Origin: Glaciozyma antarctica PI12
Taxonomy: Eukaryota > Basidiomycota > Microbotryomycetes > Kriegeriales > Camptobasidiaceae
Direction of reading: 5' to 3'
DNA: 64,000 nucleotides
Assembly (NCBI GenBank): GCA_002917775.1
Contig: KZ627158.1
Span: 16,745 to 80,744 of the forward strand
Part shown: one piece after another, positions 26,401 to 49,615 of the stretch
Position numbering within the stretch: position 1 is the first letter of the stretch
Layout: each line of letters opens with the position of its first letter
Made by a program: the position numbers and the translations under genes
Notes under the pieces: generated by a model
Databases searched by the model: none
Told to the model about the DNA's origin: nothing
What the model saw: the letters and a program-made list of their open reading frames with translations, nothing else

Positions 26401-28827
26401 ATGGTATCTCAATCCAAGCTGGCTCGACAGGCTAGCCTGTTCACCTCGGTCAAGGAGACGTTCCTCACCATCGACAACGCCAAAACGGTACGCTCGAAAC
26501 GCGCTCGGCCTTCCCACCGCGATCCCTGACCTTGGTCCTCTCCATCGCCGTCGTGCAGGTCGTCTTCTGGTGCGCTACGGTACTGAATCGGATACAGGGA
26601 GAGGAGCTGACCCTGGCGTGTGCTTGATTGCAGGTATCTCGTGCAATACTGGGCCCTCAAACTACTTAGGCATGTGAGAGCGACCGGGCTCACCGCGACT
26701 GTCCACGAGGCCTACCTGGCTTTGGTGAAGGTGCGTTCCTTCGACTGGCGTGCTTGGAAGAGGCGACAGGTGGACCGGAACCGGAGGGAGGACGAAGCTG
26801 ACCCATCTCGCTGCAGCGCGTCTTCAAGGTGATTCTCCTCGTGCCGTCTGCACGCCGCAAGGTCGCAGGGGAGCTCGACAAGGCCACCCTAGAGCTTGAA
26901 GCCAAGGTAGGATCGCCGCTTGCTCTTCCCGAACCTCCACTAACGCCTCCACAGCTCGCTCCGAAGCACCCCTCCGTCTCCCAGCAACTTACCCTTCCTA
27001 CGACCGGCCTCACCTCTGACGAAGTCACCGCGGTTCTCACGGCGCACAGCGAGCTCCCCAACACGCGTTGGGAGGAAGGGAGGGTCAGCGGAGCGGTGTA
27101 TCACGGTATGGAGAAGATGTGGCAAGATCTGGAAGGAGGCATTCGGCATGTTCGAGGTGTCGAACCCGCTGCACGCGGACGTGTTCCCTGGTGCGTTCGC
27201 AGGATAGGCTCGAGGGGAAGGAAGCTGACCTGGATTATTGGGCGAAGGCGTGAGGAAGATGGACGCAGAGGTCGTCTCGATGTGCCTCGCTCTGTTCAAC
27301 TCTCCCCTCCCGACCTCTGCGATCGACCAGAACGGAGGAGCAGGAACTACCACCTCGGGCGGGACCGAGTCGATTCTCATGGCCTGCAAGGCGTACCGCG
27401 ACCGTGCTGCCGCTGAGTACGGCATCACCGAGCCTGAGATGTGCGTCTTTCGCTCGTCGCTGATCCAGGCGCGAACTTACGCTCTAGGACAGGATCATTC
27501 CCATCTCTGCGCACGCGGCTTTTGACAAGGCGGCCAAGTACTTTAAGATCAAGATCCACCACATCCCAGTCGATCCCATCACGCGCAAGGTCGACATCAA
27601 GAAGGTCAAGCGCGCGATCAACCCCAACACAGTCATGCTCGTGGGCAGCGCTCCCAACTTCCCTGACGGCATTATCGATGGTGCGTTCTTTCATATCTCC
27701 CCTCGTCGCAGAACTGACGCCGTGTCCCCAGATATTACGGCCCTCTCGAAGCTTGCGATCAAGTACAAGATTGGCCTGCACGTCGACTGCTGCCTCGGCT
27801 CCTTCCTCGTTCCCTTCCTCGAGCGCGCTGGCTACGCCTTCGAGCCTTTCGACTTCCGCGTCCCAGGCGTGACGTCCATCTCCTGCGACACGCACAAGTG
27901 TTCGTCCCTCCCTCCTCTTCCGTCTTTTTCGCAAGACTAACGCTGCGAGTGAGGTAGACGGTTTTGCGCCTAAGGGAAGCTCGGTCATCATGTACCGCTC
28001 CAAGGCGATTCGCAAGTACCAATATTCAGTGATTACGACATGGCCCGGCGGCGTCTACGCCTCTCCCTCCATGGCCGGCTCTCGGTACGTCCTCTCTCCC
28101 ATCTGAATGACCTTTGCTGACCCCTCTATAGTCCCGGAGCTCTCATCGCCGGCGCCTGGGCGTCGATGGTGCACATGGGAGAATCAGGCTACACCGCTTC
28201 GTGCCGCGAGATCGTTGGCGCCGCAAAGCGTATCGCGCTCGGGATCCGCAAGGATTTCCCAGAGTTGTACATCCTCGGAGATCCGCTCGTCAGCGTCGTG
28301 GCGTTTGGCAGCAAGTCGTTGGCGGTCTACGAGGTGGGAGATCGGATGAGCAAGGCGGGGTGGCATTGTGCGTTCGTTTCGTTTCGAGTGCATGCGAGTG
28401 CTGATGGGCTGAGACGCAGTGAACGCGTTGCAAAACCCTCCGGCGTTGCATATTGCTTGCACCAAGTTGACGGTCCCCGTCGTCGACGAGTTCCTGAGGG
28501 ACCTGAGGATCGCAGTCGACGGTGCCAAGTCGAAGGTTGGCGGGGGAGATGGCTCGATGGTGATGATTTGTACGTCGTTCTCTCTCTCTCTGGGGTACTG
28601 GAAGCTTGCTGATCGAGCGGCGTAGACGGACTTGGATCGTCGAGCGCGGTCGGCCCTGGGCTCGTCGAGGAGATGAGCAGTCGCTGTACGTTCTTTTCGC
28701 TTCTTCCCTTTTTAGATACTGTCGCTGACTGCTCACCTCTTCTAGACATGGATGTGGTGAGTTCCTCTCGCCGTTGTTACCTCGGCAGGATCCTCGCTGA
28801 TCGCGTCTCTCGCAGCTTTACGCTTAG
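26401..28827 (+). CDS. DPL1: Sphingosine-1-phosphate lyase (PLP enzyme, ER membrane)
   Basis: Cleaves phosphorylated long-chain bases to a fatty aldehyde and phosphoethanolamine, the exit step of sphingolipid breakdown. Start ATG 26401 ([20 protein letters not shown]). A membrane segment follows ([12 protein letters not shown] region), then [108 protein letters not shown] and the PLP lysine motif SCDTHKYGFAPKG split by an intron inside Tyr. The end is [33 protein letters not shown] and a tiny last exon (LYA, TAG 28825-28827). About 12 exons, near full family length (about 540-560 residues). The motif order is diagnostic. Confidence 0.95.
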
Positions 28828-43876: not shown

Positions 43877-46423
43877 ATGGATCCTACTCATCCCACTTCA
43901 GCTGGAACAACCATCGTACCCTCCCAACCTCCCTCGCGCGCCGCCTCCGTCAAACACCCTCAAGCACCTTCGATGCAGCAGCAAGAGGACGAGTTCGATG
44001 AGCCGCCCAAGAAGGATCGCGCCCCTCCCTTCGTAGTCATCCTCTGCCTCTTCCAGTCTCTCGCCGGTTTGCTCTTCGGATGGGAGAGCGGAGGAATCGC
44101 CGGAGTCGTCAACCAAGCTGATTGTGCGTCCTAACTTGGTCACCCTCGGCGTTGCGTGAGCTGATCTCCAGTGGCGTTCGTCTAACAGACCAGATGAGGT
44201 TCGGCGAACCTGACCCCAACACCGCGACGGGCTTCATCATCCCCACCACCCGTCTTTCCATCATCACCTCCTTCCTCGGACTCGGTGCGCTCTTTGGCGC
44301 CCTCCTCGCCGGATCGATCTCGTCGCGCGTCGGCATCAAGGTGGCCTTCATGTTCTCCCTGGTCATCTTCCTTATTGGTATCGCGGTCGAAACGAGCGCG
44401 CAGTATCAGTGGGGACAGATCGTTGCGGGACGCCTCATCGCTGGGTACGGAATTGGGAGTCTGAGCATGCTTGCGCCGCTTTACCAGGCCGAGTGCTCGC
44501 CTAGGCATCTTCGTGGGCTCATTACCTGCACGTACCAGCTCTGCGCCACCCTTGGGTACGTCCTCCTTTCTACGCTGCTGATTCCGCTCGCTGACCCTGC
44601 TCTCTCGGCGCAGAATGTACGATGTCGCTTCGATCTTTCGCATCGCGCAACGACCACTAACATGTTTCGCACGAACAGCTTCCTCGCTAACGTCGTCAAC
44701 TACACGTTCCGCAACCGAACCGGCTCCATCACCTGGCGAATCCCCATCGGCGTCCAGCTCGTCTTCGTACGTCCCTCGGTCGCTCTCCCCTCGCACTCCT
44801 AACCCTCTTACGACAGGGAACTCTCCTCCTAATCGGCACCGCCTTATCCCCCGAATCTCCTCGCTACTTCATCGCCCGCGGCAACGTCGACCAAGCGCGT
44901 ACCAACCTCGCCAAACTCCGAGACCTCCCCGTCGACCACCCCGAGTTGGAGCAGGAGATCCAGACGCTCGTCAAGGCGAACGAGGCGGAGAAGGCGTTGG
45001 GAAGCGTTAGTTACCGCGAGTGCTTCTCGAACGAGGGAAGGATGCTTTTGAGGACTTTGATTGGGATCCTCGTTCAGGCGGGTCAGCAATGGTCTGGAGT
45101 CAACTTCTGTGAGTCCTCGCTAAGGTAACAGAAGTGAGTAACAGCACTGACTCGCTTGCAAGTCTGTGAGTTTCTCTAGCGCGACATCTCCTCGCCACAC
45201 CGTCTAACCTCTCTCGCAGTCTCCTACGGCGTCAAGTTCTTCGCTTCGGCCGGTATCAGCGATTCCTTCCTCATCCAAGTCATCCTCGGAGCCGTCAAGT
45301 CCGTTCCCTCCCTCCTCCCCCACTCCCCCGCTAAACATCCTCTTCGCAGCGTCGTCTCGACATTCCCCGGACTATGGGCCGTCGAGCACCTCGGTCGTCG
45401 TCAAACCCTCCTCATCGGATCAGTCATCATGTACGTCTCTCCCTCCTCTTCTCCATTGTTTCGAAACTGACCCCGTTGCAGGTTCACCGGACAAGTCGTA
45501 GCTGGAGCCGTCGGGACAGCCAGTACGTCCCTCCTCTCCCATTCTCCCTTCCTTCGCTGACCGAATCTCGCAGGCCCCAACGGAGAGGTGGCAGGAAAAA
45601 TCCTTATCACTTTCTCCTGCATCTTCATCTTCGGATTCGCCTCCACCTGGGGTCCTCTCGGTGCGCTCTTCTTCCTTTTTGTGCGCGGGAGCGGAGGCTG
45701 ATGAGGTTGTGTAGGATGGGTCGTCGCGGCTGAGCAGTTCCCTATCCGCCTTGCTGCGGCTTGTGTCTCTATGGCTACTGCTTCCAACTGGGGAAACAGT
45801 GCGTCTTCATTTTCGCAATCTCATGCGAAGGTGCTGATGGAGTCCTTTTCGGCAGACTTTTTGCTTGCGATCATCACGCCTTATATCACCGATGAGGGCT
45901 ACGTACGCTCTCCCCTCCCTAACGTCGTCGGAACGAGGAACTGATATCGCGTTGCAGGGAAACCTCCAGGCCAAGATCGTGCGTTTCTCGGAGTCCGCCC
46001 GTGCGGACCACCACTGACTCCCTCTCTCTCGCGCAGACCTTTATCTGGGCAGGAGCCATCGTTGTCTTTGGTCTCTTTGTCCTGTTTTTCGTCCCCGAGG
46101 TTCGTCTCTCCCCTCCTCCCCTCTCGCAGCTCGCTCGCTCCCTCTCTCCTCTCGCTCCCTTCCTCTCCTCATTTCCCTCTACCTTCCAATCAACCTCTCT
46201 CCCCTCCAATCAATCACTAACCACTTCCCCCACACAGACCAAAGGACTCTCCCTCCTCCAAGTCGACGAGATGTACCTTTCCCGCGTCAACGCGCTCCGC
46301 TCAGCCTCCTGGGTGCCCTACGGCGGTTCCTCGACCCGTAACGCCGGGATGGGGTTGAAGCTCGAGACTTCTCACCATGAAGTGGCGCCTAAGAGGGCGC
46401 TGGAGGAGGATGTGGTCGCTTGA
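43877..46423 (+). CDS. MFS sugar transporter (SP family), with two 3-nt exons
   Basis: Twelve-helix proton/sugar-type plasma-membrane carrier. Start ATG 43877 (MDPTHPTSAGTTIVPSQPPS). TM1 is FVVILCLFQSLAGLLFGWES. Then FIIPTTRLSIITSFLGLGAL, VAGRLIAGYGIGSLSMLAPL, YQAECSPRHLRGLITCTYQL (the family SPxxxRG motif), TLGIFLANVVNYTF, PESPRYFIARGN, GQQWSGVNFFFSYGVKFFAS, LGRRQTLLIGSVIM, WGPLGWVVAEQFPIRLAA and VPETKGLSLLQVDEMYLSRV. TGA 46421-46423. About 14 exons; two of them appear to be 3 nt long (44614-44616 and 45163-45165), each restoring a residue expected by the family spacing. The sugar specificity cannot be read. Lies upstream of formate dehydrogenase in the same direction. Confidence 0.9.
44614..44616 (+). 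other. 3-nt microexon (AAT) in the sugar-transporter gene
   Basis: The preceding intron runs 44556-44613 (GTACGT...CTGACC...GCGCAG, 58 nt) and the following one 44617-44678 (GTACGA...CTAAC...ACAG, 62 nt). Inclusion gives ATLGIFLANVV, the usual LGI(F/W) spacing of sugar porters; skipping stays in frame but deletes the Ile. Confidence 0.7.
45163..45165 (+). other. 3-nt microexon (TCT) in the sugar-transporter gene
   Basis: It lies between two introns of 54 nt each (45109-45162 ending GCAAG; 45166-45219 ending CGCAG), both with a branch-point motif (CTGAC, CTAAC). Inclusion gives GVNFFFSYG, with the same spacing as NFIFYYG in known transporters; skipping gives a shorter NFFSYG. Confidence 0.65.
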
Positions 46424-47086: not shown

Positions 47087-48835
47087 ATGGTCAAGGTGAG
47101 CAGCACCTCTCCACGACCCAAGCCGAACCGATCGCTGACCCCCACTTCCTCTGCCACTCTCCCTGTCCTCCCGCGCACCTGCAACGACACGCAGGTCCTC
47201 ATGATTCTCTACGATGGAGGCGAGCACGCCGTCCAGCAGCCCAAGCTCCTCGGCACGACCGAGAACAGCCTCGGCCTAGCGCCCTACATCAAGGAGCAAG
47301 GATGGGAGCTCGTTGTCACCTCGAGCAAGGAGGGACCTGATTCCGATTTCCAGAAACACATTGTCGACTCCGAGTGAGCTCTCTTTCCTTGTGGGGGACT
47401 TGGGAGGAAGGTCGGAGCTAACATCTCCTTCAACCACGCAGTGGTACGCTTTCGATCGACCTTGCCCTCAAGCTCGAGTGCTCAGCTAACGCGCGCTTGC
47501 AGTCCTCATTACCACTCCCTTCCACCCCGGATACCTCACCGCCGAAGTCCTTGCCAAGGCCAAGAACCTCAAGGTGAGCCCTCACCCCCACTTCGGCGCC
47601 GTCTCCCCTCGAGGCTGGGAGCTAACGTCGTTGATGCGCGCAGATCTGTATCACCGCCGGAGTTGGATCGGACCACATTGATCTCAACGCTGCCAACGTG
47701 CGCAAGATCACCGTCGCTGAGGTCACTGGATCTAACGTCGTCTCGTGCGTTCGTCCTCGGCTTCCTTTCGAGCTTCTTGCTGACCTCGTCTCTCCTCCAC
47801 AGCGTCGCCGAGCATGTCGGTAAGTTCTAATCCTACCTCTCCCATTCCCTACCCCATTCCCCATCGCTCCATAACCCCCCAGCTGACCCGTCCCCGATCT
47901 CGCAGTCATGTCCATCCTCCTCCTCGTCCGCAACTTTGTCCCCGCCCACGAGCAGATCATCTCGGGCGACTGGAACGTTGCTGCGATTGCCAAGGACGCT
48001 TACGACCTCGAGGGCAAGGTCATCGGAACGCTTGGAGCTGGTCGCATTGGCTACCGTGTCCTCCAGCGCCTCTTGCCTTTCGACCCCAAGGAGCTCCTTT
48101 ACTGTGCGTTCCTCACTCGTTTCTCCCCGTCGAATAGTCCTTACGAAGTGACGAATAGACGACTACCAGTCTCTCCCTGCTGAGGCCGAGGCTGCCGTCA
48201 AGGCCCGCCGCGTCGAGGACCTCAAGGAGTTCCTCGGCCAGCTGGACGTCCTCACTGTCAACTGCCCTCTCCACGAGAGCACCAAGGGTATTATCAAGTA
48301 CGTTCTTCCCCCTTCCTCCTCCCTTAGCAGCGCTAACCACGCTACCCCCTCGCAGCAAGGAGACCCTTTCGTACATGAAGAAGGGCGCATGGATCGTCAA
48401 CACCGCTCGCGGAGCTCTCTGCATCGCAGAGGACGTCACTGCCGCTCTCGAGTCGGGCCACATCGCTGGATACGCCGGAGACGTCTGGAACCAGCAGGTA
48501 CGCCCTCTCCCGCTCCTCTCCCTCGCTGGCACTCGCTGACGATTTTTCGTGCGCAGCCCGCACCCAAGGATCACTGCTGGCGTAACATGCGTGGCCCCAA
48601 CGGCAACGGAAACGGCATGGTCGCTCACTACTCCGGTTTGTCTCCCTTCCCTCCCTCGAACTCGGCTGACACCGACGCCACAGGAACGACCCTCGACGCC
48701 CAGGCCCGCTACGCCGCTGGGACTAAGCAGATCCTCGATAACTGGTTCCACAACAAGCCTCAGACGCCCGCCGATATCATTGTTGAGAATGGGGATTACG
48801 CGACCAAGGCGTACGGGCAGCGCGACAAGAAGTGA
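47087..48835 (+). CDS. FDH1: NAD-dependent formate dehydrogenase
   Basis: Oxidises formate to CO2 with NAD+, detoxifying formate and yielding NADH; D-2-hydroxyacid dehydrogenase fold. Start ATG 47087 (MVK), then [40 protein letters not shown], a 2-nt exon (47442-47443) joining IVDSD to [51 protein letters not shown] (partly a 17-nt exon), [20 protein letters not shown], the NAD fold [68 protein letters not shown] and [17 protein letters not shown] with the catalytic His. TGA 48833-48835. No mitochondrial leader, so probably cytosolic. Full family length; all signature motifs intact. Confidence 0.95.
47442..47443 (+). other. 2-nt microexon (TG) in the formate dehydrogenase gene
   Basis: Introns 47374-47441 (GTGAGC...GCTAAC...CGCAG) and 47444-47502 (GTACGC...GCTAAC...TGCAG) leave only TG between them. 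GA + TG + TC restores Asp-Val and the conserved [13 protein letters not shown]. Skipping the two bases shifts the frame and destroys the enzyme. Confidence 0.75.
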
Positions 48836-48934: not shown

Positions 48935-49537
<603 letters not shown>

Positions 49538-49615
49538 TCTCAAACACAAAAAAACCCGCTATGTCCAATCCCAAAGAGCTATGCACACCAACCACCACCA
49601 CCATCTCCAACCGCA

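Follow-up and report, generated by a model that had tools for sequence, protein, structure and literature searches.

A probable two-nucleotide exon required for the reading frame of a putative formate dehydrogenase gene of Glaciozyma antarctica

Several ultra-short exons have been described in plants and fungi. The Fusarium CYP621A gene contains an exon of a single nucleotide, and the report on it also cites exons of 2-5 nt in Arabidopsis, Drosophila and human (PMC12940212). The Arabidopsis gene APC11 likewise contains a 1-nt exon, for which the authors proposed intron definition followed by successive removal of the introns (PMC4674806), and exons of this size in the plant genes APC11 and VPS55 are conserved across land plants (PMC8831610). 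In the basidiomycete Cryptococcus neoformans var. grubii, 1-bp exons are mentioned in passing (PMC3990503). Adjacent fungal introns that are removed in consecutive reactions are also known in the form of stwintrons (PMC12403724). Exons as short as these are often missed or misassembled by annotation, according to two of these sources (PMC12940212, PMC8831610). As judged by titles and the openings of abstracts, a literature search on two-nucleotide exons returned nothing relevant and one on Kriegeriales genomes and introns returned nothing on such exons; a search combining micro-exons with Rhodotorula found none.

The window analyzed here, a 64,000-nt stretch of DNA from Glaciozyma antarctica PI12 with a G+C content of ~60%, is part of contig C13 in a genome of 20.0 Mb in 18 contigs, and it contains, on the + strand, a gene that encodes a putative NAD-dependent formate dehydrogenase (FDH). 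The gene runs from the ATG at 47087 to a stop codon ending at 48835 and consists of 11 exons coding for 362 amino acids (Table 1), with the dinucleotide TG as the third exon. As in Fusarium CYP621A, the exon belongs to a fungal gene and keeps the frame inside a conserved motif, and the total gap between its neighbors is 129 nt, compared with 139 nt in F. graminearum CYP621A; in contrast, the CYP621A exon is 1 nt long, belongs to a cytochrome P450 and is documented by 20 orthologues and RNA reads (PMC12940212), whereas the FDH exon is 2 nt long and is known here from the sequence of one genome. The APC11 exon is constitutive, as the FDH exon appears to be, but it is a plant exon of 1 nt that was tested with constructs (PMC4674806), and the APC11 and VPS55 exons, ultra-short like TG but from plants, were absent from annotation (PMC8831610). 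C. neoformans var. grubii resembles the host of the FDH gene in being an intron-rich basidiomycete (PMC3990503), and stwintrons differ from the FDH introns in that a splice signal is interrupted in the former (PMC12403724) and none in the latter. The kind of exon is therefore already known, and TG is a new example of it in a core enzyme, with no new mechanism involved. The initial annotation held that exons of 1-3 nt are rare in any eukaryote, a claim that is tempered by the 1-nt exons published in plants and fungi (C. neoformans belonging to another subphylum than G. antarctica) and by the additional very short exons that are apparently present in this genome.

Table 1. Exons and introns of the FDH gene and two other candidate ultra-short exons (positions in the window, except those prefixed C16)
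Feature	Position	Strand	Remark
FDH coding exon 1	47087..47095	+	ATGGTCAAG; N-terminus MVKVL... as in homologues
FDH intron, 99 nt	47096..47194	+	required for homologous N-terminus
FDH coding exon 2	47195..47373	+	3' end ...GACTCCGA, phase 2
FDH intron preceding the microexon, 68 nt	47374..47441	+	donor GTGAGC at 47374, CTAAC at 47418, CAG ending 47441
FDH 2-nt exon TG	47442..47443	+	third base of Asp63 and first base of Val64
FDH intron behind the microexon, 59 nt	47444..47502	+	donor GTACGC at 47444, CTAAC at 47486, CAG ending 47502
FDH coding exon 4	47503..47573	+	starts TCCTCATTACC
Remaining FDH coding exons, first four	47644-47744, 47803-47819, 47906-48103, 48159-48297	+	
Remaining FDH coding exons, last three	48356-48497, 48557-48635, 48684-48835	+	
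Candidate 3-nt exon AAT, sugar-transporter-like gene	44614-44616	+	introns of 58 and 62 nt; span 44556-44678
Candidate 5-nt exon TTCTA, family-8 glycosyltransferase gene	C16:115151-115147	-	introns of 49 and 53 nt; span C16:115200-115094

The assignment to NAD-dependent FDHs follows from a full-length match to the solved structure 2fss (E = 1.3e-160 over residues 1-362) and from both Pfam domains, PF00389 and PF02826, scoring above the cut-off. None of the three solved (PDB) FDHs shown, the best of them at the E-value just given, has a gap across the TG site. No second FDH copy of high identity was found, the other matches being 29-41% identical. Downstream of the gene, at about 49400-49550 of the window, lies a CT-rich simple repeat, visible as long Ser/Leu runs in the reading frames.

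The arrangement around TG that was reported in the initial annotation is confirmed in the sequence, with coordinates, bases and intron lengths all correct, and the accompanying interpretation, that the FDH reading frame needs these two bases, is supported by the consequences of including and omitting them. With TG in place, Asp63 is assembled as GA+T and Val64 as G+TC, and the conserved FDH block is restored at full length; skipping TG shifts the frame, as had been claimed, and leads to a stop 35 residues further on, for a total of 98 aa. Retention of the first flanking intron brings an immediate stop, and retention of the second shifts the frame. Other solutions were sought by pairing GT/GC donors at 47320-47499 with AG acceptors at 47385-47529, no intron being shorter than 35 nt; of the 242 splice patterns tried (55 with one intron and 187 with two), only 13 keep the frame. 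The TG pattern is unique among the 242 in combining two positive donor scores with an unchanged length of the 84-aa stretch; each of the other 12 in-frame patterns includes at least one donor with a negative score. Two complete spliceosomal introns flank the two bases, and the frame of a conserved protein requires them, as in an ultra-short constitutive exon.

The splice signals that were initially described as consensus are all present, but the wording was slightly generous: among 489 motif-selected introns from 264 kb of the genome (the window together with an arbitrary 200 kb from two contigs), the percentile ranks are 16 and 28 for the two donors, 33 and 60 for the branch sites, and 39 and 79 for the acceptors. 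Both donor scores are below the genome median, which counts against the TG exon. The chance of such an arrangement was assessed by shuffling the interior of the 129 nt, with the outer donor hexamer and the CAG fixed and the same splitting rules applied; a split that leaves a 2-nt exon arose 8 times in 200,000 shuffles of mononucleotides and once in 50,000 of dinucleotides (2-4 per 100,000), and a split that leaves any exon of 0-6 nt arose 47 and 6 times, respectively. A scorer that relies on the codon use and splice signals of the 264 kb and contains no protein information selects the TG exon whichever of four penalties is applied, with a local path score of 31.4 versus 12.6 when exons shorter than 3 nt are barred (a difference of about 19 bits) and a whole-gene score of 140.8 versus 116.8 in favor of the TG path, figures that involve a mild circularity, the signal and codon tables having been trained on the 264 kb including the window. 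The scorer differs from the gene model in reading through the 99-nt first intron and, at the highest penalty (18), also through the last FDH intron.

Taken as a whole, TG is very probably a real, constitutive 2-nt exon of the FDH gene, the flanking introns of which would be removed sequentially by intron definition. Both introns appear to be complete, U2-type and of ordinary size, so that each could be recognized independently. Recognition of both at one instant would be unlikely because the U1 pairing stretch (-3 to +6) of the second donor starts on the G of the AG that closes the first intron; after the departure of one intron, however, TG would come to lie at the edge of a normal exon, and the remaining intron could then leave. 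For the FDH gene, it is natural to suppose that the introns leave one after the other by intron definition, as has been argued for the Arabidopsis 1-nt exon (PMC4674806). Either order of removal would yield an identical mRNA, and hence, the recursive or two-step splicing that was initially offered as an alternative has no separate outcome at this site. The score of the intron 2 donor hardly changes, from 7.41 to 7.48, once intron 1 is gone, so the scores give no hint on the order. As for the origin of the arrangement, we infer two intron gains, two bases apart. An introner (intron-copy) origin was considered and rejected: in the whole genome, each of the two introns matches only itself at E <= 0.01, and the longest match common to both does not exceed 7 bases. 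With almost no exon separating them, the two introns of this core metabolic gene, in a small and intron-rich genome, offer a clean natural setting in which to study how the spliceosome locates each intron and which of the two it takes out first.

An alternative that we consider improbable is that both introns mostly leave together as one 129-nt intron, with TG included only some of the time, much of the mRNA frameshifted and the poison skipping serving as an FDH off-switch. Skipping would use the outer donor and acceptor and bring a stop 35 codons on, and the shortening of a 9-nt exon of potato invertase to 1 nt led to its omission from 33% of the transcripts (cited in PMC4674806), but the 129-nt fusion lies ~19 bits below the two-intron path, and a mostly frameshifted product would be costly given that no second close copy of FDH was found. 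Intron length is a further argument for the TG exon. Intron-like matches with open flanks show the largest excess over shuffles at 47-62 nt (360 versus 23.3), and matches longer than 120 nt are likewise above shuffles, for example, 57 versus 31.1 at 121-135 nt, which weakens the argument from length; the excess beyond 120 nt is taken, by assumption, to represent donors and acceptors of neighboring introns joined together. These shuffle-corrected bins replace the raw list of intron lengths, which was dropped as proof that 129 nt is abnormal because the set is full of spurious long pairs.

It is very improbable that an assembly or base-call error conceals a true gene with one intron and exons joining in frame. 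A small length error by the junction would indeed make TG unnecessary, but such an error would not produce two complete introns of normal length, leaves unexplained the internal acceptor, branch site and donor that divide the 129 nt into two ordinary-sized introns, and does not account for TG completing Asp-Val, the usual residues at this place (the four commonest motifs, D/E followed by V/I, comprise 179 of the 203 homologues listed). Nested introns (a stwintron or recursive splicing), with one intron splitting a splice signal of the other, are extremely improbable because, although adjacent introns that need sequential removal would look similar to nested ones, donor, branch site and acceptor are intact in both introns with no signal of either split by the other, the base ahead of the first donor is A, so that there is no [D1,2] split G/T, and TG sits between the AG and the second donor in a junction that reads CAG-TG-GTACGC, not as the zero-length exon of a recursive (ratchet) site.

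The comparison with homologous proteins was based on a set of 203 (drawn from the best 120 of 8000 scored and the best 120 of 209), and the alignment at the site on 31 chosen rows, namely, the gene model and 30 of the best 120 homologues. Among the matches listed, the nearest are a JGI protein (88%) and proteins of Leucosporidium creatinivorum (86%) and Phenoliferia psychrophenolica (86%), both of the latter species being Microbotryomycetes. No indel near the TG site is present in 200 of the 203 listed homologues. The annotated FDHs of two Kriegeriaceae, P. psychrophenolica and Meredithblackwellia eburnea, are without exactly VLI after Asp63, and one FDH protein from Auriculariales is without two residues near the site. 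A search aimed at the three-residue loss found no further proteins with it among the best 120 of 209 matches. P. psychrophenolica has another FDH in which the site is intact, and VLI is retained in two near relatives whose contigs of ~1.2 kb are, judging by size, probably transcripts.

The two VLI losses look like the result of an annotated single intron that spans a tiny exon, which suggests that a tiny exon was missed in the annotation of these Kriegeriaceae, with a layout other than that in the window. The layout in the window cannot yield a VLI-less product by GT-AG splicing because the exon starts TC CTC AT and no AG is available in an Ile codon ahead of the third position, a point that counts against the TG exon; such a product would instead follow from an in-frame exon of 9 nt, with the second intron shifted 7 bases downstream. 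Given this difference, the VLI-less proteins do not establish conservation of the 2-nt exon. Exons this short are also a practical warning for annotation, and at the TG site the FDH entries of two relatives already appear to be faulty.

Several observations hint at a wider population of ultra-short exons in the genome. A scan of the 264 kb for tandem introns with open flanks yielded 31 candidates for exons of 0-30 nt, compared with 3.65 per shuffle (20 shuffles), and 5 candidates of 0-7 nt, compared with about 1.3 per shuffle, some places being counted under more than one exon length. Two of these five compete with longer exons at their places, and the other three are the FDH TG, AAT in the transporter gene and TTCTA in the glycosyltransferase gene (Table 1). 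The 5-nt exon is likely, with support similar to that for TG: skipping it breaks the frame, the gain in the scorer is 18.0 bits, and the fragment matches PF01501 with 43.8 bits through the exon and 27.6 bits when cut before it (not a like-for-like comparison), with no convincing match among solved structures. A 3-nt exon in the sugar-transporter-like gene, ~2.8 kb upstream of the FDH site, is also likely; it would supply the Ile of ...TLGIFLANVVNY..., raises the match to PF00083 from 67.8 to 77.4 bits and leaves the fragment gap-free at the exon against the plant sugar transporters shown, with a modest gain in the scorer (20.7 versus 15.4, or 5.3 bits, relative to paths limited to exons of 15 nt or more). 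When the scan was made stricter and confined to exons of 1-7 nt with a gain of at least 5 bits, it recovered the FDH and glycosyltransferase exons but not that of the transporter, and returned nothing on two shuffles. A single strong case in 200 kb of arbitrary choice does not allow a frequency to be given for the whole genome.

A broader possibility, which we regard as doubtful, is that this lineage maintains standing ultra-short exons (candidates of 2, 3 and 5 nt in the 264 kb) that would arise by intron gain beside existing introns and be spliced in an ordered, recursive-like manner, with the FDH site as a hot spot at which Kriegeriaceae would carry a tiny exon of another length. If that were true, the site would allow the shrinkage of exons or the movement of introns to be traced.

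Some slightly longer or less clear cases were also encountered. On the - strand of C8 (C8:187326-187201), an 8-nt exon, AGAGTATG, lies between introns of 57 and 61 nt, and the spliced peptide reads ...GLIDRESMIANYIALAL..., which we take to be typical of Na+/H+ exchangers. Two candidate exons of 11 nt on the + strand of the window, within 26488-26633 and 28686-28815, gain ~20 and ~12 bits, respectively, in the scorer relative to paths limited to exons of 15 nt or more. An apparent zero-length exon in the window (8641-8458) seems more plausibly to consist of an intron with a normal exon behind it, and two further apparent zero-length exons are found on C8. Among the 328 introns of up to 110 nt in the window and the sampled contigs, there are 22 mutually matching pairs at E <= 1e-3, exemplified, among the 15 of the 22 shown, by two C16 introns that are 76% identical over 59 nt; these pairs could possibly be intron copies, or chance matches from shared signals.
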